The notes under the pieces: generated by a model
Database searches by the model: none
The model's input: only the letters and a program-made list of their open reading frames with translations
Told to the model about the DNA's origin: nothing
Made by a program: the position numbers and the translations under genes
In this document: in pieces, positions 5,147-33,299 of the stretch
Layout: each line of letters starts with the position of its first letter
Numbering within the stretch: position 1 is the stretch's first letter
Assembly: GCA_019163175.1 (NCBI GenBank)
Contig: JAFLKN010000009.1
Span: 1 to 41,942 of the forward strand
DNA: 41,942 bases
DNA from: Prolixibacteraceae bacterium
GTDB lineage: Bacteria; Bacteroidota; Bacteroidia; Bacteroidales; Prolixibacteraceae
Reading direction: 5' to 3'

Positions 5147-5154
5147 AAATTGCC

Positions 5155-5209: not shown

Positions 5210-5301
5210 CCCGTTCTCAACATTCTTCACTTGCTCACCCAATCACCCAATCGCCCTTCGCCCCTCGCCTATTCACTCGTTTTCCCAATCCATAAAACAC
5301 C

Positions 5302-6636: not shown

Positions 6637-6638
6637 TC

Positions 6639-6831
6639 TGTTCATTCTATTTCTCTGTTCATTTAAAATGAACAGAATATAATACTGAACAATATCTTTA
6701 TATATTGTTAATTGTTAACACTATATGAAATATGCAATTGTTCAATATTTTTTGATAAATATTTTTTTTAATCAAACATGTTCACTATTTTTGCTTGTTC
6801 ATTGAAAATGAACATAGGCTTTTAATGAACA
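6639..6831. promoter_or_regulatory. AbiEi-type operator cluster upstream of the defence operon
   Basis: Two perfect palindromes TGTTCATT-N3-AATGAACA lie at 6656-6674 and 6796-6814. Lone half-sites occur at 6639-6646 (TGTTCATT) and 6824-6831 (AATGAACA), with degenerate GTTCA-type sites between them. The right palindrome begins two bases after a -7 box, so a bound protein would block initiation. AbiEi antitoxins are known to autorepress through inverted repeats, which makes the adjacent AbiEi-like protein the likely ligand (inference). Confidence 0.7.
6762..6793 (+). promoter_or_regulatory. Candidate promoter of the defence operon
   Basis: TATTTTTG at 6786-6793 fits the Bacteroidota -7 consensus TAnnTTTG. 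A T-rich stretch, not a perfect TTTG, lies about 20 bp upstream. Initiation near 6800 would leave a leader of about 38 nt before the ATG at 6838 and would fall inside the right palindrome. Confidence 0.4.
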
Positions 6832-6837
6832 AATGTC

Positions 6838-7833
6838 ATGAAGAAAGAACGGGAAATTCTTGAAGAGGCTATCAACAGCCTGCTCAGGTACACGCAAATT
6901 CAGGCAATCGTTAAGGATGGTCGGCTCAGACGTGATGCCATACTGGAAATTGCCAGCGAAGAGTTCGCGATTGAAATTAAACCTGAAATCACGAAAGGCA
7001 ATAAAGGCATTGTCCTTGCTCAGCTCAAGGAAGTTTCCAGGGAGAATAATCTTCCAATAATTCTGATCACAAAATATATCCCTGGTGAAATAGCCAAAGA
7101 ATATGTGGCCGAAGGGGTATGTTACCTGGATGTTGCCGGCAACTGCAATATCAGGCAGAAGAAACTGATGCTCCTGATTGAAGGAAAAAAGATTGAGCGG
7201 ATGGCAAAAATCAATCAGCCACGCGCTTTTCAGGAAGCCGGCATCAAACTGGTCTTTCAGTTTCTGGTCGATCCTGAAAAGACACAACTCCCGTACCGCG
7301 AACTTGCCGGGATGGCCAACATCTCTTTAGGATCCGTTGGAACCATCATGCAGGAATTAATCGACCTTAATTTCATACTCAAAACAAAACATACCAAAAA
7401 GCTTAAGAATACTAAAGATCTTCTTAATCGCTGGATAACAGCCTACCATGATGTGTTGCGACCACGTTTACTCAAGAAAGAGATGCGCTTTGTTAAGCCA
7501 GACAGCTATAACAAATGGAAGGATATTAACCTGAATCTGATAAGCGGGCATGTGTATTGGGGTGGTGAACCGGGAGCAAATCTTCTGACAGGCTACCTGC
7601 ATCCGGGAACTTTTACAATTTATACCGATCAGAATTGGCATATTTTTAAGGATATTGATCTTGTTCCTGACGAAAACGGAAAGGTGCAGGTTTTGGATAT
7701 TTTCTGGAATCCGGATGCTATCTTGGGTGTGCCTCCCCTATTGATATATGCCGACCTTATGAGCAGTGGTAGCGACCGGAACATTGAAACCGCAATTATG
7801 ATTTTTAATAATGAGTTACAATATATCAAGTAA
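6838..7833 (+). CDS. AbiEi-family antitoxin-like regulator
   Basis: This 331-aa protein resembles the longer members of the type IV AbiEi antitoxin family. An N-terminal alpha/beta region contains EFAIEIKPEI (42-50) and later YLDVAGNCNIRQK. A winged-helix segment spans about 145-180 (LPYRELAGMANISLGSVGTIMQELIDLNFI), and the C-terminal half is beta-rich. AbiEi proteins neutralise the AbiEii nucleotidyltransferase and repress their own promoter. Here the gene sits directly behind paired palindromes, and its end overlaps the nucleotidyltransferase gene by 23 bp. It may therefore control the whole 12-gene operon as well as the toxin. The E-I-K triad is reminiscent of nuclease folds, but activity is not implied. 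Confidence 0.7.
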   Translation: MKKEREILEEAINSLLRYTQIQAIVKDGRLRRDAILEIASEEFAIEIKPEITKGNKGIVLAQLKEVSRENNLPIILITKYIPGEIAKEYVAEGVCYLDVAGNCNIRQKKLMLLIEGKKIERMAKINQPRAFQEAGIKLVFQFLVDPEKTQLPYRELAGMANISLGSVGTIMQELIDLNFILKTKHTKKLKNTKDLLNRWITAYHDVLRPRLLKKEMRFVKPDSYNKWKDINLNLISGHVYWGGEPGANLLTGYLHPGTFTIYTDQNWHIFKDIDLVPDENGKVQVLDIFWNPDAILGVPPLLIYADLMSSGSDRNIETAIMIFNNELQYIK

Positions 7834-8659
7834 TAACTTCAGCAATCCTTTGTTGAAGGAATTGCTCGATCAGTTGACAACCTTTTTTAGTTCAGTAGGT
7901 TCTGAGTTTTATATCATTGGCGCAACTGCCCGTGATATAATTCTTTCGGGTATTCACCATCAGCATGCTGGTCGGGAAACGGATGATCTGGATATCGCTA
8001 TTGCTATCCCCAATTGGAGTAAGTATCAGGAAATAGCTGAAAGCTTATGCTTGATCGACGGATTTAGTAAATCGAAAGAACAAAAACAGCGGTTTTGGTA
8101 CAAAAAAGTGTATATGCTTGATATTGTTCCTTTCGGTGAAATAGCTAAATCCGATAATCACATTTACTGGCCACCCGAGGAAACTCATGCCATGTCAGTC
8201 CATGGATTTACCGAAGTAGTGAAAAATACACTTGAAATTACGGTTGATGATACACTCAATATTCGTGTTGCTTCTCTGCCTGGAATATTCATTCTGAAAT
8301 TAAACGCCTGGAATGACAGGCATATCCTCACCGATAGAGATGCTGAGGATATGGCTTTCATCATCGAAAATTATCTCAGCATTAACGATCAAAGAGCAGC
8401 TAATGAGCATTACGACCTCTATGAAGTTACACCTTTCTCTACATTCATTGCAGGGGCGTCTTTAATGGGAAGGGATATGAAGGAAATACTCAAAAAAGAT
8501 GTTATGATTCTGGATTTGCTCCACCGGATTATCCTGGATGAAACAAATAAAAACGTGGATAGCGTTTTAATAAATCAAATTCTCGAAAAAAATAAAAAAC
8601 TGAGTTACGAAGATGTGTATAACGGACTTCTTTCTCTCACAAATGAATTAAAAAAATAA
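7811..8659 (+). CDS. AbiEii-like nucleotidyltransferase
   Basis: This 282-aa protein has a DNA-polymerase-beta-type nucleotidyltransferase signature. EFYIIGATARDII (G37-A-T39 in place of the usual GGS/GGT) is followed by RETDDLDIAI, with the metal-binding pair D59 and D61. The family (AbiEii/AbiGii and relatives) includes toxins that modify tRNA or other targets with nucleotides. The gene overlaps the AbiEi-like gene by 23 bp, the usual antitoxin-toxin order, and lies 14 bp before the methylase. It may be an abortive effector or a guard triggered when the defence system fails. The target cannot be read from the sequence. Confidence 0.7.
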   Translation: MSYNISSNNFSNPLLKELLDQLTTFFSSVGSEFYIIGATARDIILSGIHHQHAGRETDDLDIAIAIPNWSKYQEIAESLCLIDGFSKSKEQKQRFWYKKVYMLDIVPFGEIAKSDNHIYWPPEETHAMSVHGFTEVVKNTLEITVDDTLNIRVASLPGIFILKLNAWNDRHILTDRDAEDMAFIIENYLSINDQRAANEHYDLYEVTPFSTFIAGASLMGRDMKEILKKDVMILDLLHRIILDETNKNVDSVLINQILEKNKKLSYEDVYNGLLSLTNELKK

Positions 8660-8673
8660 TACTACCTGTTTAT

Positions 8674-10743
8674 ATGGCTGATATTGAAGAAACCAACGAA
8701 GAAGTTGTCCTCGAAGACAACCAGATAATGTGCGCTTTAACGGACTTGCCAAAACCCGCCAAAAGCAAAGAACTTACCTTACAATCGCTTATCCTGATGC
8801 TCAACGAAGAGTATGGATTTGAAATGAGTGATATGGAACGTGATTATGGATTTGCCTATGTGGATATTGAAGGCAAAAACAAGCGCATGAAAATTGATCT
8901 TGCTGTATTTGAAGCTGGTAAACCTCATGAAGATGATGGGTTGATCCGTATTTGCATAGTACAGGATGATAAAACCAAATCCAATGATAGCAAAAAAGGC
9001 GTGGAAGCTACATTGCAGGCTGCCCTCGAAGCTTCTGAGATATGTGATTTCGGCCTCTGGACCAATGGAGAAGAATTCCATTTCCTGCAAAAAGAAATGG
9101 ACGAATGGAACCAGCCTAACTGTTACGATATTTCTGACTTTCCTGGTGCCGGCCAAAGCATGGAAGACCTGGAAAAATGGGCAGATAAAATCAAGCCTCG
9201 TAAACCTGCTAACGACTCTTTGATCCGCACCTTTAAACGCTGCCACGACTATATCTATGGTAACGAAGGAATGAAGAAGACTGCCTTCTGGGAATTATTA
9301 AACCTGATCTTTTGCAAAATCTTCGATGAAAAACGCCGATTTATACCTTCACAGAATGGTGAGAGCTACCGCCGCAAATTTTGGGTCGGTGTTAAGGAAC
9401 AGAATTCAGAAGAAGGCTTACGAAATATTTCAAAGCGTATCAAAGGTATCTTCGAAGAGCTTAAATCCGATCCTTTATTTTCTGAAGTCTTTGATGGCAA
9501 CGAACAGATTAACTTATCGGATCGGGGTTTGGCATTTGTGGCAGGTGAGCTTGCCAAGTATTCCTTCCTCGATGCTACAGTAGACGTTAAAGGTACCGCC
9601 TACGAAACTATTGTTTCCAATACACTGAAACAGGAAGCAGGGCAATTCTTCACACCAAGAAACCTTATTCGTTGCATGGTTGAAATGATGGATCCAACAG
9701 AAAACATGCGCGTACTTGATCCTGCCTGCGGATCGGGAGGATTCCTTACTATTGTCCTTGACCATGTGCGCAAAAAGATAACCCAGGAAATGTATCCTGA
9801 GTTATCAGGCTTATACCTGGTCGAAAAATACAATTCCGCTGAGGTAAACGAACGCATTAAAGACTATGCTGAACGCATGATTTTTGGGTTCGATTTTGAC
9901 CCTGACTTAAAAAAGGCGGCTCGTATGAACATGGTTATGGCTGGTGATGGTCATGCCAATATTTTCAATATTAACTCTCTTGATTACCCCGAAGGTCCAA
10001 AAACCGCAGAGCTTGAAAAAATCAGAAGTACTATACAGCGGAGTGTCGAAAGCAGCAACGACAAGGATGAGCCTTATGAAACAGACGATGCCCGGGGCAA
10101 ATTCGATCTCATATTTACCAATCCTCCTTTTGGGGCTAAAGTGGAGGTAGCTTTCCAGATATCAAAACGCTATGAACTTGGGCATAACTGGAATAAGGAT
10201 ATGTATGGCAACTACCAGATGGGTACGGTTAGCAGCAGCGAGGCACCTGAAGTACTATTTATTGAGCAATGCTATAATTTCCTGAAACCTGGTGGTAGAA
10301 TGGCTATTGTATTACCTGATGGCATTCTTGGGAATCCTAATATGGAATATGTAAGAGAATGGATTCTTAAAAGATTTAGAGTTTTGGCCTCTCTTGATCT
10401 TCCAGTAGAGATGTTCTTGCCACAAGTAGGAGTACAGGCTTCTGTACTTTTCCTGCAAAAGAAAACCTCAATTCAACGCGATGCAGCGGTAAATGGAGAA
10501 AATTACGATGTTTTCATGGCTATTGCAGAAAGTGTTGGTAAAGATAGAAAGGGTAATCCTATTTATGTTCGTGATGAAGATGGAGCTGAGTTATTATATG
10601 ATAGCATCAAAGAAATTCTCTTTCGAGATAATAATGGTAATGCAAAGCTTAACAGTTTCAAAGTTCGTATAAAACATTTGAATGATGATTTGCCTCATAT
10701 ATGTAGTAAATTTCTGCAATTTATAAAGGAGGATATTAAATGA
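8674..10743 (+). CDS. N6-adenine DNA methyltransferase (type I M-like, MADS MAD2-like)
   Basis: This 689-aa protein has SAM motif I DPACGSGGFL at 349-358 and catalytic motif IV NPPF at 483-486, as in HsdM-type N6-adenine methylases. An N-terminal extension (about 25-150, with MKIDLAVFEAG...IRICIVQDDKTKS and FGLWTNG) resembles the type I restriction-subunit N-domain, but its nuclease triad looks incomplete (QDDK). It would methylate host DNA together with the S subunit, whose gene overlaps by 4 bp (ATGA). No HsdR is present. The order M-S-kinase suggests the methylase of a MADS-like or BREX-like system. The C-terminal 150 codons are more AT-rich than the rest. Confidence 0.85.
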   Translation: MADIEETNEEVVLEDNQIMCALTDLPKPAKSKELTLQSLILMLNEEYGFEMSDMERDYGFAYVDIEGKNKRMKIDLAVFEAGKPHEDDGLIRICIVQDDKTKSNDSKKGVEATLQAALEASEICDFGLWTNGEEFHFLQKEMDEWNQPNCYDISDFPGAGQSMEDLEKWADKIKPRKPANDSLIRTFKRCHDYIYGNEGMKKTAFWELLNLIFCKIFDEKRRFIPSQNGESYRRKFWVGVKEQNSEEGLRNISKRIKGIFEELKSDPLFSEVFDGNEQINLSDRGLAFVAGELAKYSFLDATVDVKGTAYETIVSNTLKQEAGQFFTPRNLIRCMVEMMDPTENMRVLDPACGSGGFLTIVLDHVRKKITQEMYPELSGLYLVEKYNSAEVNERIKDYAERMIFGFDFDPDLKKAARMNMVMAGDGHANIFNINSLDYPEGPKTAELEKIRSTIQRSVESSNDKDEPYETDDARGKFDLIFTNPPFGAKVEVAFQISKRYELGHNWNKDMYGNYQMGTVSSSEAPEVLFIEQCYNFLKPGGRMAIVLPDGILGNPNMEYVREWILKRFRVLASLDLPVEMFLPQVGVQASVLFLQKKTSIQRDAAVNGENYDVFMAIAESVGKDRKGNPIYVRDEDGAELLYDSIKEILFRDNNGNAKLNSFKVRIKHLNDDLPHICSKFLQFIKEDIK

Positions 10744-12098
10744 AAACTATAATTGCAAAAAGAATTTGGCTTGCAGAAAGTGATTTGCGGTTAGATGCAT
10801 CATACCATTTAAGCGATGGACAATTAACATTAATCGCCTTCAAAAAATCCAATATTCCAACAAAACCGTTGAAAAATGTCACTGATAGAATTTTTTATGG
10901 TGGTCGTTCAAGACGTATATATGTGAATAGTCCAGAGTTTGGCTTGCCTTTTATTAAAGGAGCTGATATTATTAAAGCAGATTTTTCAAATTTAAAATAT
11001 ATTTCTCGCAAGCGCACTCCAAATTTAAAAGAGTATTTCTTAGAAGAAGGTTGGACTACTATTACCCGGTCTGGCACTATAGGTAACACAGCCTATATCA
11101 ATAAAGACTTTATGGGTAAGGCTGCTTCAGATGATATTATTCGTGTTATTCCTAAATCAATACCCTCAGGCTACTTATATGCTTTTCTCTCTTCAAAAAA
11201 TGGTAAAGCGTTGTTGACACACGGCACTTATGGTGCGGTAATTCAACATATTGAGCCTGAACATATAGAAAATCTACCTGTTCCAATTTTCCCAACCCAA
11301 CAACAACAAACAATTCATGACCTTATATTAGAATCTGCCAATTTACGAGTAGAAGCTAATAAATCTTTGGAAGAGGCTGTCAATTATTTTAATAATAGAT
11401 ATTCCGACAAATTGATACCAACAACAAAAGTTTTTAATAAGAGTATTAATGACTTAACTTTTAGCTGGGCATCGTATAATAATAATATTGAATGTGATAC
11501 AATTGAAAGTCAAATAGGTAGTGACAAACTTACAATTGATGAGATAGCAACTGACGTGTTTGCTCCTCCTTTGTTTAAACATATTTATTTAACAAAAGAC
11601 AATGGCCATCCATTCCTTACTGGTGGTGAGTTAACTCAAAACAATCCAAGATATTATAGATATCTTTCACCTAAAGGAGTAAAAAATATATTAGATTATA
11701 AGGTAACGAAAGGAACTTTATTGCTCTATAAATCAGGTACAACAGATGGAGGCATTTTAGGAAATGTTTTTATTGTGGATGATAATCTTGCAAGTGCTTG
11801 TTTATCAGATCATGTTATTAGAATAAATATTCCTGATTTGAAACTTTCATATTGGGTTTTTGCCTTTTTAAAATCAACTGCAGGTATACGTTTATTACAA
11901 AAATTAGCAACGGGTACTATGATACCTTTCATAACTCCAGAAAGATTAAAAAGACTTGTTTTCCCAAAACCAAATGAAGATTTTGACACTGTTGTGAATC
12001 ATGTTTCAAATTATCTTGAAAAACGTGTTCTCGCTAACAATAAAGAAAACCAAGCCATTCAACTCGTCGAAAAAGAAATAGCCCAATGGCAACAATAA
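10740..12098 (+). CDS. Specificity (S) subunit (MADS MAD5-like)
   Basis: This 452-aa HsdS-type protein has two target-recognition halves. Each has an 'IKGADI...ITRSGTIGNTAYI...ASDDIIRVIP' or 'LTGGELTQNN...LLYKSGTTDGGILGNVFIVDD' pattern, followed by conserved helices (PVPIFPTQQQQTIHDLILESANLRVEA; LVFPKPNEDFDTVVNHVSNYLEKRVLANN). It would direct the methylase to a bipartite DNA site and might also present unmodified DNA to the defence complex. It overlaps the methylase by 4 bp and the kinase gene by 13 bp. By eye it is clearly more AT-rich than both neighbours, which suggests exchange of the recognition module. Confidence 0.85.
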   Translation: MKTIIAKRIWLAESDLRLDASYHLSDGQLTLIAFKKSNIPTKPLKNVTDRIFYGGRSRRIYVNSPEFGLPFIKGADIIKADFSNLKYISRKRTPNLKEYFLEEGWTTITRSGTIGNTAYINKDFMGKAASDDIIRVIPKSIPSGYLYAFLSSKNGKALLTHGTYGAVIQHIEPEHIENLPVPIFPTQQQQTIHDLILESANLRVEANKSLEEAVNYFNNRYSDKLIPTTKVFNKSINDLTFSWASYNNNIECDTIESQIGSDKLTIDEIATDVFAPPLFKHIYLTKDNGHPFLTGGELTQNNPRYYRYLSPKGVKNILDYKVTKGTLLLYKSGTTDGGILGNVFIVDDNLASACLSDHVIRINIPDLKLSYWVFAFLKSTAGIRLLQKLATGTMIPFITPERLKRLVFPKPNEDFDTVVNHVSNYLEKRVLANNKENQAIQLVEKEIAQWQQ

Positions 12099-15000
12099 TA
12101 CAAGCTAAACACAGCAAGGGAGCAGTAAATGCAGGCGAAGAGCGTTTATTGAAATTTCTGGAAGTCAACCTGCCGGATGATTTTTATATTATCTCCAACA
12201 TTGAGTTCGCCAACGTAACACCCAATGGCCAGGTGCAGTACCTGGAATACGATTGCATCGTTGTTACGCCTCATTCCCTGTATAATATAGAAAACAAGGA
12301 TTGGTCCGGCCGTCTCGAAGGCGACGATACCACCTGGTACCTCAACGACAGCGAGAAACCCAATCCGCTTAAAACCGTTCGTTTTAAAACATCAGTGTTG
12401 GCAAGTAAGCTAAAAGCGACCAATCCTTCCTGGGCTGCAGCCTGGGTTGCTTCCTTGCTTACGCTCTCGCATCCGCGCCAGAACAAACGGGGATTATGGG
12501 GTGATTGCGAAAAGGCTACATTCCTGCTCGATAATAAACTGATCGACTTTCTAAGCAATCCTTCAGCTGTTAAAAAACATGCCGGTAACATCAGCGACAT
12601 ATATCAGCAGATCAGTGATTTTATCGCGGGAGTTTCGGTTCCTCATGTGTCGAAAGAACGAAAAGAAATTTTGGGATACGATATTATCGAAACCCTTGCG
12701 CTTGATAAATGCTATTCCGAGTTTCTATGCAAAACCAAGGGCATGGTTACAGCAAACAAGTTAAGAATTAAGGAATATATTCTTGATCTGGCTGGACTAA
12801 GTCCTTCTGAGCGCGAAAAGCGTTCGCTTCAGATTAAAAACCAGCAGATGGCGTTGGCTAAAATGCAGCACAGCCCTTTTATCCTTAATGCCAGGTTTAT
12901 CCTGGACGAAGAAAGCCATCGTTTTTATGAGATTACCGACTTTCTCGACGAGAGTTCACTAAGTGCCGAACTTCGCCGTAAAACATTTACCCAGGAAGAA
13001 AAACTGGGAATCATCTTTAACCTTATCGAAGCGATTCGCGTAGCGCATAAAGCCAGCGTTTATCACCGCGACCTTAATCCTCAGAATATTTTTCTGTCGG
13101 GTGGTATTGCCGCCCTGGCTAATTTCGGGAAGGCTTATTTCGCCGATCATGGCGACATGGGTTATACCGTTGCTCCAACCATCAACGAAAGTAATGTTAC
13201 AGCGTATCATGCTCCGGAATTATTGGCAAAAGATGCTTCCCGCGCAAGTGATATTTATTCACTGGGAGTGCTTATTTACGAATTGTTTACCGGTAAACTT
13301 CCTTTCAGCTCTCCTTACGAATTGAATCAAATAGGTGGAAAACTCACCCCCGAATTGATGCCGACCGCTGTAAAAATTGGTCTCCCTGCCTGGTTGGACG
13401 AATTATGTGCCAATACCATTCTTTTTGACGACGCAAGCCGCTGGGATACCATCGAAGAACTGGAAAACTTTCTCAAATACCAACTCTCAAGTTCACAGGT
13501 TCCGGATCCCGCTCAACATGCTTACCAATCGGCTTTTGCTGACCTTAAACCCGGTTCCCGTATTGGTGATTTCACCTTGTACAGCCAGTTGGGTAAAGCC
13601 GGTGGTTTTTCAAGGGTTTTCAAGGCAAAACACAACCTGCAGAGTAAGGTCTTCGCAATTAAGATATTTAACGAGAGCATTAATATGCAGACCGTTATTG
13701 ACGAATACGTCGCCCTGGAAGGTCTTAATAACTCTAATATTGTTAAGTTCGTTAGCAACGGTACACTTCCCAATGGCCAGTTTTATACCCTCATGGAGTA
13801 CCTCGAAGGTGCCGATATGCAGGAATACACCTTGGGTGATCTGCGATTGCCTTTGGTCCGCATTTACCAGGTAGCAAAAGAGATATTAAATGCGTTGAAC
13901 TATTTGCAGCACCATGAACCCTTGCCCATTTTTCACCGCGACATCAAACCATCCAATATTGTATGGGATAAGCAGGATCGTTTTGTGTTGATTGATTTTA
14001 ATGTAGCCACAAACCTCGACACGGATAAAAATTTCGTTGGAACTCAGCCTTATCTTGCTCCTGACCTGGTTCAGGGTAAAAATGTAAATTGGGACAACAG
14101 TGCCGACACTTTTTCATTGGGTATCACCCTTTACGAGTTGATCTGTCATGCTTATCCATGGAGTGGGTTACGCATGCCGCGGGTAGGCATACCTCCCGAA
14201 CCATTGCAAACTTATCAGCCTCAGATTTCGGATGCTTTTGCTTCATTTATCCTGAAAGCAATTGGTTGTAATAAAACCGAACGCTTCAATACAGCTCAGG
14301 AAATGCTGGATGCGCTGAAAGCAATTGGTGAAGATAACCTGGTAAAAACAGAACCACCTGTAACCAGTGGAGAAGTCTTTCTGGTTGGACCCGAAGACAG
14401 AAGCTTTGTTGATTACCTCAATTCGCTTTACAGTCAGAGCCGTTATGGCAACGCCGGTACCAGGGCTGGTTCTGTAATGAATTCATTCGATACGCTCACT
14501 TATACCAAAACTAAACTCGATACCGAACTGCTGAAAGCTATTGCTGATGGTAAATATCGCTTGGTAATTATTACCGGGAATGCCGGAGATGGTAAGACTG
14601 CTTTTATAAAACAGATTGAAAGTCATGCTTCAGAAGTTGAGCGGTTCACAAACCGGAATGGTGCAAGTTTTCAGATAAATAATATTCCTTACCTGAGCAA
14701 TTACGATGGTTCGCAGGACGAGCAGGATCGGGCGAATAATGAAGTGCTTTCCGAATTTTTCCTTCCTTTTGTAAATACCAGCGATTTTAGCTCTGTTGGT
14801 GAAGGCCGTATTATTGCCATCAACGAAGGTCGCCTGGTCGATTTTCTGCAGTCATCAGGTAACTTCGATCATCTTTCCGAAATCATTGAGAATTATTTCT
14901 ACAACGGCGGTCACAGCGAATTGCCCGAAGGCTTGATGATAATTAACCTGAATTTAAGATCTGTTACAGCTAAGAATAATGGAACCGAAAGCCTGTTTCG

Positions 15001-16159: not shown

Positions 16160-16165
16160 AAGAGT

Positions 16166-23238: not shown

Positions 23239-23240
23239 GA

Positions 23241-23927: not shown

Positions 23928-26900
23928 TTATAGAAGCTATAACAAATTCTTATTCTAAACATTTATTCGCTGAATATAAAAAAGTTGATATGAAAATAAA
24001 AAGCATGAAAGCATTTAGACACGATTTTAAGATGTCTATAGATGGACTTAAACATGATGAATGCGATGAAAATTTCATGGGTTGGAAACATAATAAAACC
24101 CCAGGTCTTTTTGCTATGTTCCATGGAGAAAAGAGTGATGTTGAAGGTCTTCTTGCAATGCCAACAGAGATGGCAGAAGATGGTCAGGCTGTATACGAAT
24201 TTATTCAAAATGCAGCAGACAGTGATGCTTCTCATTTTTATATGTTTTACAACGACAAGTATCTACTTACGATTAATAATGGAAGTGTTTTTGACAAAGG
24301 AGGTATTAAATCAATCCTTAATATTGGACAAAGTTATAATAAGAAACATGATCCTGATAAAATAGGTCGTTTCGGAATTGGCTTCAAATTAATACATAGG
24401 TTGGTTGGTACATCCAGTGGATTAGATGAAATTATCAAAGACTATAAAGGTCCTCAGCTATATAGTTGGTCAAGAAAAAGTGATTTTACCGATTTTATTG
24501 GTGCGGCTAACTTTATCGAAGATGGATTGGAAAATGAGTTGCCATGGTTAATGAAAATACTGATTACTTGTTTCCCGGCAACAGTTGATGAACAAGTAAA
24601 AGATTTAGATTATAATGAAAGAATACCCTACAAAAGGGAAGAACTCGTTGAATTTCAAAACTTTGTTAAGGAAAATATACAACACATTGACTCTAATTAT
24701 TTTAATCAGGGTACAATGATTTTCATAGGACTTGGAAATGGCAAAAAAGAACTATTAAGTAAAGATCAGGATGATATAAATAGCAGAATTGAAAATACAC
24801 TGTATTTTCTTAAAGATTTACATCATATCCAGGTTAATGATAAAGTCATTCAGCGACAAGCTGATTTCATCTTAGAAGAAAAATTCATAGTAAACCCGGA
24901 TGAAGATGATTTCAAGCAAATAGGAATTACTGACTCAAGAGATAAGCTGTTTCCCGTTATTCTGCAATTTGGATATAACACGTATTCAAGCAAAAATTTA
25001 AGTGTAAAAAACTACCCTAATTTTTATAAGTTCTTCCCGATGGAAGATACAACATACAAATTGCAGTTTATCTTTCATTCAAATGTTTTCTCTATTGGAA
25101 GTAATCGTCGGCATATCCATGAGCATGATATTAATGCAGAGCTTCTTCGCCTTTTGTCAAGGAGAATGCAAAACCGGATGAATGAGCATATTCTAAATAA
25201 ATCTTCCCATTTTTACGATATCTATGCCAATATTCTATTATCTGAGTGCAGTAAACAGTTTGTATCTGCAAACTTAATGGCCTCTTTGCTTGCATATATT
25301 TCTGATCATACCCCAGCATCTGATGGAACTTTTTTGAATAGAAATTCCATAATCATTAAAAACACATTGATTGATTGTTTACCTTCTGATTTTGGTATAG
25401 AAAAAAAATGGTTTAAATGGAATAAGACTGACATTGCAGACAGTGAATTGATTAAAGAAGCCCAGAATACAGTAAAACTAGGATTGAAATCTTATACATT
25501 AAAAAACTTGTTGGATGAAGGTGAAATTAATTCAGTCAATTCCTGGATTGAAAAACTTTCCGATAGCGAGTTTGATACTTTCATTACCGAATTAGAGGAT
25601 AATATTCCTCAAAATATATCGAAAATTAAGTTTATCAAATTAGAAAACGGAGACTATAAATCCATCTCAGAAATAGTTGATGCAGATATTTTATTTAAGT
25701 TCCCAAAAATAGAATCATTAGAGGGTGTACTTCGCACTCTAAATTTCAAGCTTACCAAAACTAATTTTGAGAATTTCCCAACTATAAAAGCTAAGCTATC
25801 CGAATTTATTGAATATCTTAAAGAAGATGCAGAAGTAAAATTGTACGATAAAAAAATTGTACCTGCACTTACAGCCAGCAATCTGACTCCGCTTGAAAAA
25901 AAGACTCTCTTCTTGTCTTTAAAATCTTTCAAGAATATAGCAGAAAAAACGCTCTCTGACAAACTATTATTATTTTGCAATAAGGACAATGAAAAACAAC
26001 CTCTTTCAAAATTAATAGACCCTACGATAAATGGTCTGGAATTATGGATAAAAGAATATTGCATCAATATTGAGGAAGTTTTTAATGAAATTAAATCAGA
26101 AGAGTACCTTCGCGGAAGCAAAACAATTTTTAACGATATAATAGTTCCTGATTGGGACCTGATAACAGTTCAGATTAATTCTGAAAATGTTTTATCTTTC
26201 TATGAATCTGTAGTTAAGTATTATAGGTACGCAGCAAGCCCGTTGTCAATTAAATCGAAACAGATAATCTATTGTGGCGAAAATGGATGGAAATCTTTTG
26301 CCGAAAATATTTTTTATCATTCTCAACTTTCAACTTTTGCCAGATACACTGACTTGTATGAGCTGTTTGATGAAATTTCCGTGTCTTATCCGGTCAAAGC
26401 AGTACTTGGTGTTTTATCCAATGAACCCTTTGGTATACAGGATTCCGATATTGAGAGATTGATAAGTTCAGGGATTTATTCCAAAGAAACAGTATTAGCA
26501 CTTTTGGAATTCTGTAAAGGGAAAGTAAACATTTTCGAGTATGGCTATTTTTCCGATGAGTCGGGGAATATTCGATTTGAGACTGATACGGACTGTAAAC
26601 AATATTATTCTGATAAAACAGATGTTATTGACTATATACAAACATATTGCGATAATGCCCTTATCTCGCTTCCGGTTGGGATATCTGGATTTAAAGAATC
26701 AGTGGTTAAAGGAGAGAAATTATATAAAGAAATTATTGATTCATCAGAAGAGAGCTGGAAAGAAAAAGATGAAGTTTTAAACATTTTATTAAACTTACTT
26801 TCAGATTCAGGTCTAAAAGATGTTTCTAAAAACTTTGTAAATTCCATTGATTGTATTCAGCTCTCCAGTGCAGACTGCAATGATGCTGAAATTACCTTTG

Positions 26901-29140
26901 TATGGATGAAGCTGCTTAATTCAATTTTTGAAACAAACGAATTTGACAGCATCAAAAGTAAGGTTTCTATTGACGGTATTAGTTTGTCTGAATTGTCCTG
27001 GAACAATGTAATCAGTTTGGAAGGTGAGGGCGAAATAGAATTAGGTTTAATCCTTGAAAAGTTTGCTGATACAAAGGCAGTTTCTGCTGTTCGTGATCAC
27101 TTGTTGAAATCGAATAAATTCGATGCAAACAAAATAAATGCCCTTTTTCAGTCTGATATAATTCCTTCTGATCATGAGTTAGTTGAAATTGCTGAGGAAA
27201 TGCTTATTGAGGAGTCAAATCAGCTCAAAAATTCTCATCAGTTACGTTTGATTATATATCTTTTTAGAAAAAGAAAGCTAATTTCAATAAATCAGATAAA
27301 AGTATTGGCTATTGATAGTAATTGGTATTCTCTGGCTGATACCTGGTATTTAAGGCCTTATGATTTTATTGACGATGATGCTGTTTTAGATTCATGTTAT
27401 GAAGGTATCGAAAGAAATAGGTTTGGAGAGTATTCTATAATCTCTAAACCATATTTTCTTAGAGAAAGCAATACTTTCATTTGTTCTCATTTAAAGGAAT
27501 CATTACAAGGGGATGCGCTTATTCATTTTCTTGAATTAGTAAAAGAACAGATAATTAAAAATGCACAATCAATCGTAAATTGGTTAGATGATTTCACCGA
27601 TAACATAGGCTTTATTCCTTCATATTCAATACTCTCAGATTCTAAATATATTTATGCCGGCGAAGAACTTCCTGAAGTGGTTGTAGTTTGGACAAAAAGA
27701 TCAAATGAAAATAATAAAGTCCTTGAAGCGATTGGAGTAAACGGGAACAAATCAGCAATTGTTCAATTGAGACAATATTTGTTGAGGGAAATTGACGAAT
27801 ATTCATTCGAAGGATTTAGCAGGAGTAGCGAAAGGGATAAGTTCTTATTAAAGAACTCAATGTCTGTAATGTCAGAGGCGGAAATTGAGTTTGATGACGA
27901 ATTTGGTGTGATTATTAAAAGTATAACAGAATTTATTAGTCCAGTATTTGATATCTCTGATATCCGACTGCCTGCTTCTGTCCGTATCGATGGGATTCAG
28001 ATATTTTATCAGTTAAAGGAGGTTAATTCTGCATATCTGATCAGTCCTGAATTTATAAGCGGTTGTAAAAAGTTCATTGGAAATGGATATACGGCTTTTA
28101 TTCAATCTCTTATAGATGATGAAATAACCATTGTTGATCCTGATTGTCTAAGCGATGGTTGGAAAAATAAATATACTAAACCGCTGCAATTTAATGATGC
28201 TGAAATTGATATTGATAAATTGGAATCCGAAAGTCAACCATGTGATTTGACGCAATATATCAGCTGGAAAGAAAATACAGCTTCAGCACTAACAATATCA
28301 ATTATTGAAAATTCTATTCCTTATTATGTATCACTTAAGGATTTTGAGCATAAATTCATTAAAGAATATCGGGAAGGTGACATTTATTATGATAGTGAAT
28401 CCCAGATACTGTATACCAAACGAGAAACCTATAACGAAGCGGTAATAAAAGAGCTAAAAGACCTAATTGATAGTGATGAATTAACTGATTTAATAGGCGG
28501 CGGAGCTATAGTCGTGCATTCTGCCAGAGAAACTGAACTTCTGCAAGAGATTCAGAATCTGAAAGAAAAACTAAATGCGATTTCTCCAGGTGAAGATATG
28601 GAAAGAGGTGGTTTGGGTAAAGATCCTCAAAGAGATTGGAGTTTAGAAGCAAGAAATATGTTAAGGAACCATTTAAACACTGTGGATGGCTTTGACTGCT
28701 CGGGCTGGGATGATTCCAACATTCCGTCCTCAGTTGTTAGAGGTGTTAAATTCCAAGGGAAAGATTGCACCTGGATTGTTAGAAGTGCAATGAGTAATAA
28801 ATCACAATTTCATTTAACTCCTTATGAATGGACGCTACTTGAGCAAAAAGATGTATTCTTGGCGTTAAGAACAAGTCAGCACGAAATAAGGATTTATGGT
28901 ATTGATGAGGACATCAGAAAAGTAATTTTTGAAAATAACCACACTATAAACATTAATTTTGACAGCGAGTTGCTTACATTTGAAGGAATAGATGGTTTTG
29001 CGAAACTTTTAGTCCAATTCAATGTATGGGGATCAGGTTTGGTTTTCAAAAATCCGGAATATTCTGCTGGTAACTCTTTTAAAGATCTTGAAAAATGTAA
29101 AGAAGGAATTGCAAATAAATTAAGCGACGACGCATTATGA
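23924..29140 (+). CDS. Sacsin/Hsp90-type (GHKL) ATPase, giant protein
   Basis: This 1738-aa protein has an N-terminal HATPase of the sacsin-like kind: N-box E92-FIQN96-AAD in VYEFIQNAADSDA, a TINNGSVFDKGGI segment in the G1 position, and a glycine lid IGRFGIGFKL (G148-G153). The long helical middle has no named domain. A short coiled coil (about 1543-1565) precedes a C-terminal NO VEIN/DUF3883-like domain (about 1575-1690, ending with SQFHLTPYEW), in which the expected ExK nuclease motif reads VRSA. The TTG start at 23924 gives the ATGA-like 4-bp overlap typical of this operon, and the ATG at 23990 is the alternative. It may act as an ATP-driven sensor or chaperone-like switch. Confidence 0.75.
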   Translation: MIIEAITNSYSKHLFAEYKKVDMKIKSMKAFRHDFKMSIDGLKHDECDENFMGWKHNKTPGLFAMFHGEKSDVEGLLAMPTEMAEDGQAVYEFIQNAADSDASHFYMFYNDKYLLTINNGSVFDKGGIKSILNIGQSYNKKHDPDKIGRFGIGFKLIHRLVGTSSGLDEIIKDYKGPQLYSWSRKSDFTDFIGAANFIEDGLENELPWLMKILITCFPATVDEQVKDLDYNERIPYKREELVEFQNFVKENIQHIDSNYFNQGTMIFIGLGNGKKELLSKDQDDINSRIENTLYFLKDLHHIQVNDKVIQRQADFILEEKFIVNPDEDDFKQIGITDSRDKLFPVILQFGYNTYSSKNLSVKNYPNFYKFFPMEDTTYKLQFIFHSNVFSIGSNRRHIHEHDINAELLRLLSRRMQNRMNEHILNKSSHFYDIYANILLSECSKQFVSANLMASLLAYISDHTPASDGTFLNRNSIIIKNTLIDCLPSDFGIEKKWFKWNKTDIADSELIKEAQNTVKLGLKSYTLKNLLDEGEINSVNSWIEKLSDSEFDTFITELEDNIPQNISKIKFIKLENGDYKSISEIVDADILFKFPKIESLEGVLRTLNFKLTKTNFENFPTIKAKLSEFIEYLKEDAEVKLYDKKIVPALTASNLTPLEKKTLFLSLKSFKNIAEKTLSDKLLLFCNKDNEKQPLSKLIDPTINGLELWIKEYCINIEEVFNEIKSEEYLRGSKTIFNDIIVPDWDLITVQINSENVLSFYESVVKYYRYAASPLSIKSKQIIYCGENGWKSFAENIFYHSQLSTFARYTDLYELFDEISVSYPVKAVLGVLSNEPFGIQDSDIERLISSGIYSKETVLALLEFCKGKVNIFEYGYFSDESGNIRFETDTDCKQYYSDKTDVIDYIQTYCDNALISLPVGISGFKESVVKGEKLYKEIIDSSEESWKEKDEVLNILLNLLSDSGLKDVSKNFVNSIDCIQLSSADCNDAEITFVWMKLLNSIFETNEFDSIKSKVSIDGISLSELSWNNVISLEGEGEIELGLILEKFADTKAVSAVRDHLLKSNKFDANKINALFQSDIIPSDHELVEIAEEMLIEESNQLKNSHQLRLIIYLFRKRKLISINQIKVLAIDSNWYSLADTWYLRPYDFIDDDAVLDSCYEGIERNRFGEYSIISKPYFLRESNTFICSHLKESLQGDALIHFLELVKEQIIKNAQSIVNWLDDFTDNIGFIPSYSILSDSKYIYAGEELPEVVVVWTKRSNENNKVLEAIGVNGNKSAIVQLRQYLLREIDEYSFEGFSRSSERDKFLLKNSMSVMSEAEIEFDDEFGVIIKSITEFISPVFDISDIRLPASVRIDGIQIFYQLKEVNSAYLISPEFISGCKKFIGNGYTAFIQSLIDDEITIVDPDCLSDGWKNKYTKPLQFNDAEIDIDKLESESQPCDLTQYISWKENTASALTISIIENSIPYYVSLKDFEHKFIKEYREGDIYYDSESQILYTKRETYNEAVIKELKDLIDSDELTDLIGGGAIVVHSARETELLQEIQNLKEKLNAISPGEDMERGGLGKDPQRDWSLEARNMLRNHLNTVDGFDCSGWDDSNIPSSVVRGVKFQGKDCTWIVRSAMSNKSQFHLTPYEWTLLEQKDVFLALRTSQHEIRIYGIDEDIRKVIFENNHTININFDSELLTFEGIDGFAKLLVQFNVWGSGLVFKNPEYSAGNSFKDLEKCKEGIANKLSDDAL

Positions 29141-30312
29141 AATTAGATCAAACTCCTGAAAAAGAAAATACTGCATTGCAGGTTAGTGCAAAGAAAAGAG
29201 AAAACTCTCCTGCATCTTCTAATAATGGCGGTTCAATATTGGAACTCCTCAATCCTCTGAAATCAGTTAATATCAATTCCGATCTTCATTCTTTCTACAA
29301 CTTCCGTGAGTCGAAAGAGAGCATAGAAGCGCTTTTGAAAGCCCAGTCAAATCTGGTGTTTTATGTTCTACATCAAAACTTCATGTGCGATGAGTTGCAT
29401 AGAGAGTTCTTTAAAAATATGGTTGGTCGGTTTTATGATTTACCTCAGAGGTTTTGGGACTATTACAGAGGTCTTGATTATCGTAGTAGTACCAATCATA
29501 CTACTATGTTAGGATTAGTGCTGCTTGAAAATAAAAATTTCTATGATAAATTACTGAAATTTGATAATTCTATTTTAAAAAAGAGCTTTAAAAGAATCAA
29601 ATCAGAAGAAGCTGCAGTTGGCATAAAATATTTAAATGCTTTGTGTTTAGAAGAGTATTGGGGAGGAGAGTATCTAAGATTGTATTCTGCCTATTTTGTG
29701 CCTTGCAATAAAAAAAAGATAACTGATAGAGATATTAGTGATAAGAGAGCTTGGCCAGCAATATCTTTTGATGATAACTTTGAGTTTGGGAGGTTCAATA
29801 CAAGCAGTTGCAAAGTAAAGCGGAAAACAGAGGCACTAGAAGAAAATTATTGGTACAAAATTTCTCTCAACGAATTAGACAAGATGGATAATTTCCCAGT
29901 TACAATACAAGCTTTTTTATTATTCCTTGGAGTGTATGCATCTATCGGCCTGGAACGTAAGCAGGAAATTGTAAACGTAATTAAAAAACGCGCGAATGTA
30001 TTAAATCTTCCATTTGATGATAATTGGATCCCCGATTGGGATTTAGAAGATGAGAAAATGATTCGTTCACTCTCTCAAACTTTTCCTTGGAGTAAAGAAT
30101 ATATCTATGAAAATGAGGATTTGCTCAACCTGGATATTCTAGGTTTAAATATGACAGTGCCATGGGATATGGACTTGGTAAAGTTCTTTGTCAGACGTGG
30201 CTATGGCGGAAGGATGTCAGAAAATAAGGCCGTTTTTGATAAGGTCTTCAAACCGCTTTTGACAGATGAAATTTTAGACATGCTTTTCAGGCTTGAATAC
30301 GAAACATATTAA
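29137..30312 (+). CDS. Unknown protein, paralogue A of a tandem pair
   Basis: This 391-aa protein belongs to no family I recognise. It is a clear paralogue of the next gene. Shared blocks include LNPLKS-N, LHSFYNF, FKNMVGRFYDLP, GLDYRSS, TTMLGLVL, LEEYWGG, ITDRDIS, FEFGRFN and a C-terminal IRSLSQTF-WSKEYIYENED...LGLNMTVPWDM-LVKFF. The C-terminal part resembles one unit of the W-x-x-LS-N-x-x-x-PW repeats seen in many Bacteroidota proteins of unknown role. It overlaps the sacsin-like gene by 4 bp. Partner or substrate-recognition roles for the giant ATPase are possible but unproven. Confidence 0.7.
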   Translation: MKLDQTPEKENTALQVSAKKRENSPASSNNGGSILELLNPLKSVNINSDLHSFYNFRESKESIEALLKAQSNLVFYVLHQNFMCDELHREFFKNMVGRFYDLPQRFWDYYRGLDYRSSTNHTTMLGLVLLENKNFYDKLLKFDNSILKKSFKRIKSEEAAVGIKYLNALCLEEYWGGEYLRLYSAYFVPCNKKKITDRDISDKRAWPAISFDDNFEFGRFNTSSCKVKRKTEALEENYWYKISLNELDKMDNFPVTIQAFLLFLGVYASIGLERKQEIVNVIKKRANVLNLPFDDNWIPDWDLEDEKMIRSLSQTFPWSKEYIYENEDLLNLDILGLNMTVPWDMDLVKFFVRRGYGGRMSENKAVFDKVFKPLLTDEILDMLFRLEYETY

Positions 30313-30322
30313 TATTTACATT

Positions 30323-31507
30323 ATGAAATTGGATCAAATACCTGAGAATGATTCTGCCCAAGTGGTTAGATCAAAAAAAGCAGAGCGACATGAAATAAGC
30401 TCTTTTATTGACAACAATGCAACCATATTGGAGATGCTCAATCCTTTGAAGTCAATTAACTTAACTTCAAACCTGCATTCGTTTTATAACTTTAAAGAGT
30501 TAAAGAAGCAAGTTGAAGTTTTAATGCGAACGCAATCGAATATCATTTTCTATATTCTACATCAGAACTTTATGGTTGATAATGCACATAAAGATTTTTT
30601 TAAGAATATGGTAGGAAGGTTTTACGATTTACCTGAATGGGCATGGGATTACTATCAGGGATTAGATTATAGAAGCAGTAATGATTATACTACAATGTTG
30701 GGATTAGTTTTAATGGAGAATAAACACTATTATAAAAAATACAGAAAGCCTAACTTGGCTCTTACAGAATTCACATTTGCCAGAAAGAAAAATAGTGAAA
30801 AAAAAGTTGATCTGACATGTTTTAACAAACTAGCACTAGAAGAATACTGGGGTGGAAAATATGATAAAATTCACTGTGCATATTATGTCCCATACAACAA
30901 AATAGAAATTACGGATAGAGATATTTCTAATGAAAGAAGTTGGGAAGCGATATCGTTTGATAAAAACTTTGAGTTTGGCAGATTTAATCCAAATAGCTAT
31001 AAAACAAAAAGAAAAGAAGAAGAGCTTGAAGAAAACTTTTGGTTTATCGCTTCGGATAATTGGATAAAAGAGATTGATAACGAAGCTGTAGATTTTTGCG
31101 AAGCAATGAAAGCTTATTCTGTCTATGCGTCATTAGGTCTTGACAATTTTGAAAAAATAACTGTCATCTTTAAAGAACTGGCAAAGGAACTAGGTATTGC
31201 AGATTGGGATGATTCTTGGATTCCAAACTTTGAAGAAGATGAAACGAAACTTATACGCTCTCTTTCCCAAACATTCTCATGGTCAAAAGAATATATTTAT
31301 GAAAATGAAGATATCTTAGACCTTGATGTTTTGGGATTAAACATGACAGTCCCTTGGGATATGGAGTTGGTAAAATTTTTTATTGAAAGAGGATACGGAG
31401 GAAGGATGTCTGAAAACAAGGCAGTATTTTATAAAGTGTTTGAGCCAATTCTTACAGATGAGATAATTCGGAAGCTCTTCAATTGCGAATATGAACGATA
31501 TGAATAA
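30323..31507 (+). CDS. Unknown protein, paralogue B of a tandem pair
   Basis: This 394-aa paralogue of the preceding protein is colinear over its full length. The ATG at 30323 is preferred over the in-frame ATG at 30293, because MKLDQIPEN lines up with MKLDQTPEK of the first copy and the earlier start would add an unmatched MNTKHINIYI. It lies 10 bp after its sister and overlaps the helicase gene by 17 bp. The two copies have diverged mainly in the middle (about residues 140-200), while the C-terminal 100 residues are most alike. Both copies remain open, which argues for separate roles or a heterodimer, not for decay. Confidence 0.7.
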   Translation: MKLDQIPENDSAQVVRSKKAERHEISSFIDNNATILEMLNPLKSINLTSNLHSFYNFKELKKQVEVLMRTQSNIIFYILHQNFMVDNAHKDFFKNMVGRFYDLPEWAWDYYQGLDYRSSNDYTTMLGLVLMENKHYYKKYRKPNLALTEFTFARKKNSEKKVDLTCFNKLALEEYWGGKYDKIHCAYYVPYNKIEITDRDISNERSWEAISFDKNFEFGRFNPNSYKTKRKEEELEENFWFIASDNWIKEIDNEAVDFCEAMKAYSVYASLGLDNFEKITVIFKELAKELGIADWDDSWIPNFEEDETKLIRSLSQTFSWSKEYIYENEDILDLDVLGLNMTVPWDMELVKFFIERGYGGRMSENKAVFYKVFEPILTDEIIRKLFNCEYERYE

Positions 31508-33299
31508 AATCGCTAGTCAGGGCTTTCCTGTCAGAAGAAATGCCAGCCCATTTAAGGAGTCATATTCTGCTTATGATCACATGCGGTTTCTTGATATGGA
31601 GCTTCATGCTCAAAATGAGCAATTTTCCAGAATAATAAATCGAAAAGCAACCGATTTACTCGAAGATGGATTGTTGATTCCTGCCAAGTTTCTCAAAGTA
31701 GAAAATGGTCATCTTATTGTAAAAATATCCAAAGCACGTGCTATCCCTCGGAAAGGAGAATACCTCACTGCTGTTCTTTTAGAAGGAGATATGCCGGATC
31801 ATCGTAATTGGGACGAAAGTTCATGGAGAGATTTGCGGATTAACCATCAAATAGCTATATCTGAAGCTATTTGTGTATGGCAGACTCCTGCAAATGACCC
31901 AAAATTCAATTTGGTTGGGTTTAGAGGCGTATCAATTGAGTTTGCAGGCCGTTTGGTTGCAGAGTGTGTTTTGATAATGGGGCCTAAAGAACCACCGCGT
32001 GAATATTTAATGAATCTTCGTCAAATTGCAGAATCAAAACCTGAACATTCAAAATTTCTGGATTTTGATTATCTGAATTTAGGGTGGGAACCAACTGTTA
32101 TGGATCCAAAGCGGAATTTTTCCGATTATGTGCTTTCACAACTTGCATTATCACCTTATTTAATTGTTCAGGGTCCTCCTGGAACAGGAAAGACATATAA
32201 ACTGGCTGAGCTTTTGGCTGAGCTCCTGGCTGAAGGCAAAAAAGTTCTTGTTACCGCATTGACAAACAGGGCATTGATTGAATTGGCAAAGAAAGAACCT
32301 TTGCAAAGATCGCTTGAGCTCGGATTAGTAACTAAAACAAATTTAAGCATTGATGAGTTAAATGAAGTGCCCTCACTTCAGAATCCGAGGGTTGAGAATG
32401 AAAAAGGAGAACTCACCCTATCAACATTTTATGTTTGCAGTAAGGACGCGGCAATGGCATATAGTCCTTATTATGATTTTGTTATCATGGATGAAGCAAG
32501 TCAGGCTTTGCTCAGCATGTTCGAAGCAACAATCCGCTTAGGTAAAAAAGTGCTGTGGATTGGCGATCAGAACCAGCTTCCGCCTATTGTGTTGGCAGAT
32601 GAAAAAGAAATCAACCATAACAAATGCATCCCTTTAATACAAGGCATGAAAACAGTTTGTGATTCGTTTGGGTTTCCTTCTTTCATGTTAAATCACACTT
32701 TCAGACTTTCTAATCGTGGTGCGAAGTTTACTTCTCTTTTTTATAAGAATGCTCTCGTTTCATCCAGACACCTTCCTGAAAATTACTTCTATCCTAACCT
32801 CTCTGGAGATTTGCAGTTTCTCTTTCATCCGGAAGGTGGTCCTTTTTGGTTGAGCACTACTATGACTGTTGGCGAAAAATGCCCTGTTGATTCAGTTCAG
32901 TTAGTCGCGCAAATAGTAAAAGCGTTGCATTTTTCTGACAGGAATTTACACATTGCAGTATTATCAAAGCTTAAAAAAACTGTCACTCAGCTGCAAATTA
33001 GTATCAACTCATTAATTGACGAAAATGAAAAAGTGATAATTGACACGGTTGAAAGGGTTCAGGGTATGACTTGTGATATTTGCTTTTTCTTTATCCCAAA
33101 CACTAGCTTATCAATGAGCCTAAATCAATCCTTTTTTAATGTTGCTACCAGCAGAGCATCCAGGCATACAATCATTATTGCAGATTGTTCAATTCTTGGC
33201 AATCCTGTTTGTAAAGGTGGAACTCGACAATATTTAGAAAATTTGAATAGTGAAAAAAAAATGCCGGAATTAAAGCAATTAAAGAGTCTCTGGGAGTAA
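31491..33299 (+). CDS. SF1 (UPF1/Dna2-like) helicase
   Basis: This 602-aa protein has a beta-rich N-terminal region (about 60-170) followed by a two-lobe superfamily-1 helicase. Walker A is GPPGTGKT at 228-235, motif Ia VLVTALTNRALIEL, and motif II D334-EAS, then VLWIGDQNQLPPIV (motif III) and NHTFRLS (motif IV region). The C-lobe has DTVERVQGMTCDICFFF (motif V) and FNVATSRASRHTIII (motif VI). No nuclease domain is present. It is the last gene of the 12-gene block and may unwind DNA or RNA intermediates made by the system. The start could be 31491 or the ATG at 31500. Confidence 0.88.
   Translation: MNDMNKIASQGFPVRRNASPFKESYSAYDHMRFLDMELHAQNEQFSRIINRKATDLLEDGLLIPAKFLKVENGHLIVKISKARAIPRKGEYLTAVLLEGDMPDHRNWDESSWRDLRINHQIAISEAICVWQTPANDPKFNLVGFRGVSIEFAGRLVAECVLIMGPKEPPREYLMNLRQIAESKPEHSKFLDFDYLNLGWEPTVMDPKRNFSDYVLSQLALSPYLIVQGPPGTGKTYKLAELLAELLAEGKKVLVTALTNRALIELAKKEPLQRSLELGLVTKTNLSIDELNEVPSLQNPRVENEKGELTLSTFYVCSKDAAMAYSPYYDFVIMDEASQALLSMFEATIRLGKKVLWIGDQNQLPPIVLADEKEINHNKCIPLIQGMKTVCDSFGFPSFMLNHTFRLSNRGAKFTSLFYKNALVSSRHLPENYFYPNLSGDLQFLFHPEGGPFWLSTTMTVGEKCPVDSVQLVAQIVKALHFSDRNLHIAVLSKLKKTVTQLQISINSLIDENEKVIIDTVERVQGMTCDICFFFIPNTSLSMSLNQSFFNVATSRASRHTIIIADCSILGNPVCKGGTRQYLENLNSEKKMPELKQLKSLWE

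Follow-up and report, generated by a model that had tools for sequence, protein, structure and literature searches.

Do twelve closely spaced genes on one strand form a single defense system, and if they do not, which systems meet here? The question is raised by positions 6838 to 33299 of a stretch of Prolixibacteraceae bacterium DNA (the window; 41,942 nucleotides), which makes up the entire contig C44 in a genome of 5.92 Mb (95.76% complete). An earlier note, made from the sequence letters, had described an extended MADS/BREX-like operon in which a methylase-kinase-HerA core carried an AbiE pair at its head and a five-gene tail. MADS is reportedly the methylation-associated defense system of Maestri et al. 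(2024). Two parts, a system of eight genes and a module of four, describe the locus better than one twelve-gene set does. By its sequence it is a MADS variant with an effector complex of the DndFGH/SspFGH type, behind which stands a Tiamat-helicase module, and it is not BREX. We consider it probable that two defense modules lie head to tail here, genes 1 to 8 being the MADS variant and genes 9 to 12 a separate Tiamat-type module, and that they work by the mechanism proposed below.

The MADS core and its recurrence

In the window, MAD2, MAD5, MAD6, MAD7, and MAD8 (genes 3 to 7) all exceeded the NCBIfam equivalog cutoffs (Table 1), which upholds the identification of the core in the earlier note, and PADLOC supported the same assignments more weakly. 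Their order is the same as in a complete MADS locus on a Piscinibacter plasmid (L101), which consists of mad1 (HTH), mad2, mad3 (AAA_21 ATPase), mad4, mad5, mad6, mad7, and mad8. Pfam matches were found to N6_Mtase in gene 3, to Methylase_S in gene 4, and to NERD, two kinase families, and a P-loop in gene 5; gene 6 had no match in the Pfam search of the window proteins. MAD2 carries the motifs DPACGSGG and NPPF, by which the methylase is apparently active.

The searches for MAD3, MAD4, gene 2, and DndC covered the genomes of 38 of the 55 core loci described below, to which the window's own adds a 39th (for gene 2, the number is 38). MAD3 (searched at E 1e-20) and MAD4 (E 1e-3) were matched in none of these 39 genomes with the core, the window's own (95.76% complete) included, in agreement with the earlier note; the positive control, L101, matched both with the same tool in a later run. 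Genes 1 and 2 belonged to no NCBIfam family, and no MAD1 was recognized at the head, the MAD1 model having been run against neither the genome nor the HTH_17 gene at 2029 to 2370.

A scan of the genome_contigs collection with gene 7 returned 55 loci, nearly all from Bacteroidota plus one from Bacillus. L049 (the same contig as G118) and L022/G052 were each counted once, and the near-identical matches L016/L029 and L040/L046, maybe near-duplicates, were kept among the 55. Among 199 relatives searched, gene 7 was present at full length in the window's own genome, G118, and G052. Since 44 of the 55 loci keep all of genes 3 to 8, the gene order is beyond chance. Among the other 11 loci, six lack genes toward a contig end (L016, L030, L031, L032, L050, and L057), one has a PP2C gene missed by the open reading frame (ORF) picker and visible by tblastn (L042), one has a 966-amino-acid ORF in the place of MAD2, to which it showed no match (L065), and the Bacillus locus (L066) showed no PP2C match. 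In L063 and L064, the MAD8 ORFs have just 691 and 707 amino acids and no other core gene is present; these short forms are perhaps internal deletions. On plasmids, gene 6 matched four records, namely L101 and one each from Bacteroides, Phocaeicola, and Hymenobacter. The Bacteroides and Phocaeicola cores include PP2C (the Phocaeicola MAD2 reads as two ORFs), and the Hymenobacter core had no PP2C match.

The PP2C gene (gene 8) was seen in 52 of the 55 loci (all except L063, L064, and L066) and belongs to the conserved core; the tail therefore comprises four genes and not the five of the earlier note. Residues N15, D17, D35-G36, and D187-G188 were kept in 13 of 13 aligned rows and D219-N220 in 12 of 13, and we take these residues to have catalytic roles. 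Because of this conservation, it is plausible that gene 8 encodes an active phosphatase opposing MAD6. The alignments used here and below (A3 with 19 rows, A4 with 18, and A5 with 13) hold rows of our own choice from 61, 56, and 55 called ORFs, respectively.

All twelve ORFs of the operon were found on the plus strand where the earlier note had placed them, and Pfam and PADLOC bore out its domain reading. The spacings from gene 1 to gene 12 are -23, +14, -4, -13, +6, -1, +2, -4, -4, -20, and -17 bp for the ORFs as listed, which accords with the gaps of at most 14 bp, or overlaps, previously described. Two starts probably need correction, as the N termini of homologues suggest: gene 9 likely starts at M23 (position 23990), 62 bp after the PP2C gene and not overlapping it, and gene 11 likely starts at M11 (30323).

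Table 1. Coordinates and best evidence for the genes and operator-like sites of the locus
Feature	Position	Strand	Evidence
Distal operator-like palindrome, GTTCATT-N5-TGAAC	6657..6673	.	Pattern search
Proximal operator-like palindrome, GTTCATT-N5-TGAAC, 41 bp before gene 1	6797..6813	.	Kept in relatives
Gene 1, AbiEi-like regulator	6838..7833	+	C-terminal Pfam AbiEi_2, 5.2e-22; N-terminal part without Pfam match
Gene 2, AbiEii-like nucleotidyltransferase	7811..8659	+	Pfam AbiEii, 23.3 bits (cutoff 22.5; narrow)
Gene 3, MAD2, N6-adenine DNA methyltransferase	8674..10743	+	NF047738, 793 bits (cutoff 720)
Gene 4, MAD5, S-subunit-like specificity protein	10740..12098	+	NF047740, 481 bits (cutoff 400)
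Gene 5, MAD6: NERD nuclease-like, pseudokinase (NFG), kinase, C-terminal SspF/DndF-like core	12086..16159	+	NF047741, 691 bits (cutoff 460)
Gene 6, MAD7, DndG-type subunit	16166..17725	+	NF047733, 579 bits (cutoff 410)
Gene 7, MAD8, DndH/SspH-like: PD-(D/E)XK motif and HerA/FtsK ATPase	17725..23238	+	NF047742, 195 bits (cutoff 175)
Gene 8, PP2C phosphatase, conserved-core member	23241..23927	+	52/55 loci; kept residues
Gene 9, Tiamat-type (TmtA) sacsin/GHKL ATPase	23990..29140 (ORF listed from 23924)	+	TmtA, 847 bits; P_loop_sacsin, 59.5 bits (cutoff 50)
Gene 10, fold unassigned, paralogue of gene 11	29137..30312	+	Sequence comparison
Gene 11, paralogue of gene 10 (59%)	30323..31507 (ORF listed from 30293)	+	Sequence comparison
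Gene 12, SF1 helicase, motifs GPPGTGKT, DEAS, VATSRA	31491..33299	+	AAA_11/AAA_12

The proposed MAD6-MAD7-MAD8 complex and the likely self mark

Residues 760 to 1357 of MAD6 matched SspF in a profile search (1.7e-24); the DndF profile gave no row for the window's MAD6 and 1.7e-9 for canonical MAD6. Within this C-terminal core, the Walker A motif, an Asn at the assigned Walker B position, four Cys residues, and an Arg were kept in 18 of 18 rows. The predicted structure of MAD7 matched DndG of 7exx and has the DndG fold, a test more specific than the others used for membership in the complex, all of which are compatible with other families too. MAD8 combines a restriction endonuclease (REase) motif with a HerA/FtsK ATPase, as DndH does. 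Its nuclease motif, D1143...E1162-x-K1164, is real, as the earlier note had read it: its residues do not vary across the 19 rows of the alignment (author-chosen, the window included), and the Walker A and B motifs and the Gln sensor Q1748 were likewise kept in all 19. The HerA-like C terminus fell under the Pfam cutoff and matched PADLOC HerA at 1.8e-6. Canonical MAD8 found DndH (9.5e-7), and the Hymenobacter MAD8 found SspH (2.5e-8). A sequence search of the PDB gave only weak HerA-type matches for MAD8 and no useful match for MAD7 or gene 1. According to passages of PMC10853773, fusions of NERD and of inactive-active kinase pairs to DndF are on record.

The N-terminal half of MAD6 is the part that had suggested a BREX-like operon: with its NERD and kinase domains it matches PglW (225 and 226 bits). 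The likeness ends there. The score of 226 bits compares with an NCBIfam cutoff of 990, the C-terminal part of MAD6 is SspF/DndF-like, none of the twelve proteins has PglZ among its listed Pfam matches, and neither PglZ nor BrxC nor BrxL is among the PADLOC and NCBIfam matches listed. BREX membership was rejected on the low PglW score, and that the locus is a BREX variant built on PglW is hardly credible.

What would such a complex recognize as self? DndC exceeded its cutoff in 1 of the 39 genomes, which serves as an internal positive, and gave one more weak match; in the window genome there was none over the cutoff, DndC having been the one modification gene covered by the search. On this count, phosphorothioate gating was rejected as the first-choice reading. 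We infer that N6-methyladenine (m6A) is the likely self mark, because an apparently active methylase and a specificity subunit share the operon with the complex and DndC was found in so few genomes. According to passages of PMC8092258, unmodified DNA is damaged by SspFGH, which is toxic when its modification genes are absent; the same logic applied here predicts that MAD2 could not be removed while MAD6 to MAD8 stay active.

In the proposed mechanism, MAD2 and MAD5 would methylate adenines at host sites, and MAD6, MAD7, and MAD8 would assemble as a complex of the DndFGH/SspFGH type: MAD7 would be the DNA-contacting subunit, MAD6 would act as a sensor that signals via its kinase and P-loop domains, and MAD8 would use its HerA part for translocation and its PD-(D/E)XK part to cut DNA without the mark. 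The PP2C protein probably reverses the phosphorylation carried out by MAD6. What the analysis shows directly is the makeup and gene order of the locus, how often it recurs, its homologies, its conserved motifs, and the fold match of MAD7; m6A as the mark, repression by AbiEi, the antagonism of kinase and phosphatase, cutting of unmarked DNA, and the separate origin, coexpression, and second-layer role of the tail are inferred.

Head genes, predicted operator, and tail module

The earlier note had the AbiE pair replacing MAD1/3/4-like parts. The pair does recur at the head: an orthologue of gene 2 (E <= 1e-70) abuts the operon in 20 of the 38 genomes searched (any match, 23 of 38), and an orthologue of gene 1 precedes it in 19 of 19 upstream slices. 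At 21 other loci tested, the head was occupied by DUF6577 (14 loci), gene 1 alone (3 loci), an HTH gene resembling the one in L099 (1 locus), or none of these (3 loci). Because the head genes vary in this way, the pair seems to be one alternative among several for this position, not a replacement for MAD3 and MAD4.

Upstream of gene 1, a 17-bp palindrome (Table 1) was found 34 to 45 bp before the start in all 18 relatives whose slice included that start, as well as in the window; L145 is outside this count, its gene 1 start lying beyond the slice. The exact pattern occurred in 19 of 163 loci, 18 of which are these relatives. In the window, three sites give six matches (both strands, one mismatch allowed) compared with 0.48 expected, and 0 of 100 shuffles reached six. 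A third exact copy lies at 40187 to 40203, near a DUF6088 (AbiEi-like) gene at 39432 to 40034. AbiEi proteins autoregulate at inverted repeats, according to passages of PMC7319586. By analogy, the gene 1 product probably represses its own operon at the GTTCATT-N5-TGAAC sites, which would be its predicted operator.

AbiE is described in passages of PMC3985639 as a type IV toxin-antitoxin system, and genes 1 and 2 might accordingly kill the cell once the core is overcome, rather than act mainly as a regulator. Gene 2 keeps the motifs GATARD and DDLD, which we take to be of the nucleotidyltransferase type and which speak for such a role. Three cores, however, have gene 1 but no gene 2, and DUF6577 stands instead at 14 of the 21 loci outside the AbiE-pair set, so that a regulatory role fits better. 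We regard the toxin-antitoxin role as rather unlikely, although the two roles are mutually compatible.

In the tail, gene 9 matched the TmtA model PDLC03970 over nearly its full length (profile positions 1 to 1532 of 1552), a model whose name we take to denote Tiamat. Tiamat is a single-gene system. A PDB sequence search with gene 9 returned only weak sacsin matches, and searches of viral_contigs and plasmids with it led nowhere. Genes 10 and 11 are indeed paralogues (59% identity), with no Pfam match above the cutoff. A structure prediction for gene 10 from two sequences had a mean pLDDT of 36.5, and no fold is claimed. Across a further 344 genomes of the class, genes 10 and 11 gave one weak match, in a repeat protein, and none of the remaining tail genes was clearly matched in the slice around it; searches of viral_contigs with both genes and of plasmids with gene 10 led nowhere. 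Gene 12 matched 27 plasmid records, none at 80% coverage. In the literature searched for Tiamat or sacsin together with helicases or restriction-modification (RM), nothing specific was among the matches listed.

Does the core need this tail? The twelve genes might be one integrated system, in keeping with their single strand and tight spacing throughout, with the lack of a scored plus-strand terminator in 23200 to 24200, and with Tiamat-type genes near 4 of the 55 other cores. Yet genes 10 and 11 match at none of those 55 loci, and distant matches are confined to L028 for gene 9 and to L020 and L028 for gene 12. A Tiamat-type gene is present in 4 of the 40 loci that have at least 4 kb after PP2C (out of 51 loci with PP2C called). 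The ATPase-helicase pair also exists on its own: in G723, relatives of genes 9 and 12 (453 bits; 42% identity) stand behind a further GHKL-type protein, and the 30 kb examined there contain no MADS core. The GC content of the tail differs from that of the core as well (0.341 versus 0.398). An integrated system, and with it the tail as part of a larger MADS variant, is improbable. In G392, a related pair stands behind putative type I RM genes, which were read from sequence with no family search. One of the nearest relatives (L049/G118; 78% in gene 7) has no tail and carries an opposite-strand gene 108 bp after PP2C; in the other, L015, the sequence ends 383 bases after PP2C, too early to show a tail.

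If the tail is separate, it might equally be a mere defense-island neighbor, functionally unconnected with the core, and an island would also yield some enrichment of Tiamat near cores. The next genes in the window, on the other strand, include a candidate defense cluster, and the L018 and L062 cores precede unrelated defense-type genes (PDC-M16 and a DpdF-like protein, respectively). On the other side, the tail lies on the same strand as the core, 62 bp after PP2C, and different Tiamat subfamilies are repeatedly found near this spot. Those beside the four other cores were found with a home-made profile of ten rows that include L020 and L028, whose matches are thus built in; TmtA matches independent of this profile exist for L020, L052, and L055, and L028 rests on its 53% identity to L020. 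In L055, the gene scores 1325 bits and a 95-amino-acid ORF intervenes; in L052, it scores 792 bits, 28 bp after PP2C; in L020, it scores 311 bits, 200 bp after PP2C, with a helicase; in L028, it is on the opposite strand, also with a helicase. Because the longest alignment among the Tiamat-type proteins beside cores reaches 435 residues, L020-L028 aside, the core-plus-Tiamat arrangement probably arose more than once. The neighbor explanation is a possibility to be taken seriously, if not the one we favor. We prefer that genes 9 to 12, a sacsin ATPase and an SF1 helicase with two rare paralogues, were separately acquired and would serve as a second layer, presumably coexpressed with the core.

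Several points weigh against this two-module account. The SspG match of MAD7 spans only residues 385 to 504, and the window's MAD8 matches the SspH profile weakly (0.011). The window genome is 95.76% complete, and a phosphorothioate mark, though less likely, is conceivable, the search for modification genes having covered DndC. No plus-strand promoter or terminator was scored in the 62 bp between PP2C and gene 9, and gene 8 contains one promoter-like site on the plus strand (23680 to 23707), all promoter and terminator counts being at chance level.

Relatives of the tail genes were also seen in other settings. In L103 (G231), a single 2307-amino-acid protein at 8226 to 15149 has a sacsin-type N terminus and an SF1 helicase C terminus, the latter resembling gene 12 just distantly (45 bits), and lies near TatD and KAP NTPase genes. 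In L105 (G494; 3515 to 18792), a Tiamat-like ATPase related to gene 9 adjoins PglZ among genes read as BREX. In L126 (G196; 6083 to 16066), a MotA-domain gene and a weak OmpA match stand beside a 1653-amino-acid Tiamat-like protein and a helicase; we take the MotA/OmpA-type genes to be reminiscent of ZorA/ZorB (Zorya) and the helicase to be of the SNF2 type.

Around the operon, five minus-strand ORFs at 33709 to 37744 encode a dual-OB protein, two DUF488 proteins, one protein with weak HAD-type matches, and one protein without a match; three of the five match the PADLOC candidate PDC-M45. A 52-bp repeat occurs at 38203 to 38254 and 41891 to 41942 (96% identity), its second copy reaching the very last base of the contig. 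Before the operon, 2029 to 6636 holds HTH_17, AAA_25, and DUF6371 genes, the last 43% identical to its counterpart ahead of this core on a plasmid of Bacteroides (L099); this likeness points to a mobile-element module. At L018, the candidate defense pair PDC-M16 (16083 to 21639) overlaps the PP2C stop of the core by 4 bp.

Comparison with known systems

Type 2 BREX (PglW) shares with the locus the NERD-pseudokinase-kinase half of MAD6 and differs in the C-terminal part of that protein, in a PglW score far under the cutoff, and in having no PglZ among the Pfam matches listed for its twelve proteins. The HerA/FtsK-centered BRC system (passages of PMC12839542) was rejected, since its PglZ is likewise missing from those matches. 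The locus resembles AbiE in its adjacent AbiEi_2 and AbiEii domain genes and in the inverted repeats before the first gene, but its pair heads an eight-gene operon and the N-terminal part of gene 1 has no Pfam match. Gene 9 is like Tiamat along almost the full TmtA model, but it is accompanied by two paralogues and an SF1 helicase.

With DndFGH/SspFGH, as described in passages of PMC10853773 and PMC8092258, the locus shares the SspF-like C terminus of MAD6, the DndG fold of MAD7, and the REase motif plus HerA of MAD8. The difference is that an m6A methylase and an S subunit accompany the complex, with DndC over the cutoff in 1 of 39 genomes. Since this DndFGH-type complex shares its operon with an adenine methylase and a specificity subunit, and DndC did not exceed the cutoff in 38 of 39 genomes, self/non-self discrimination becomes directly testable. 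The MADS-DndFGH link was not found in the literature searched, which did not take in the original MADS description, and priority is thus not judged; the word MADS does not occur in the available text of PMC10853773 or PMC12839542.

The locus is like MADS, which we know from family models, citing papers, and recall, in having MAD2, MAD5, MAD6, MAD7, and MAD8 in the same order and above the cutoffs; it differs in the lack of MAD3 and MAD4 matches, in its head genes, in the PP2C gene after MAD8, and in the Tiamat-type module behind. Tentatively, and with somewhat less than even confidence, we suggest that MADS is a DndFGH/SspFGH-type complex rewired from phosphorothioate to m6A, that some "stand-alone" NERD-kinase DndFGH sets have a built-in methylase, and that the Bacteroidota form adds a kinase-phosphatase switch, an AbiEi operator, and a repeatedly recruited, coexpressed Tiamat-type second layer, joined in this locus by two new proteins and an SF1 helicase. 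Recurring partners of the core are PP2C, the predicted AbiEi operator, and Tiamat. The restriction mechanism of MADS is listed as unknown in passages of PMC12904381, and the likeness to DndFGH offers MADS a structural template.

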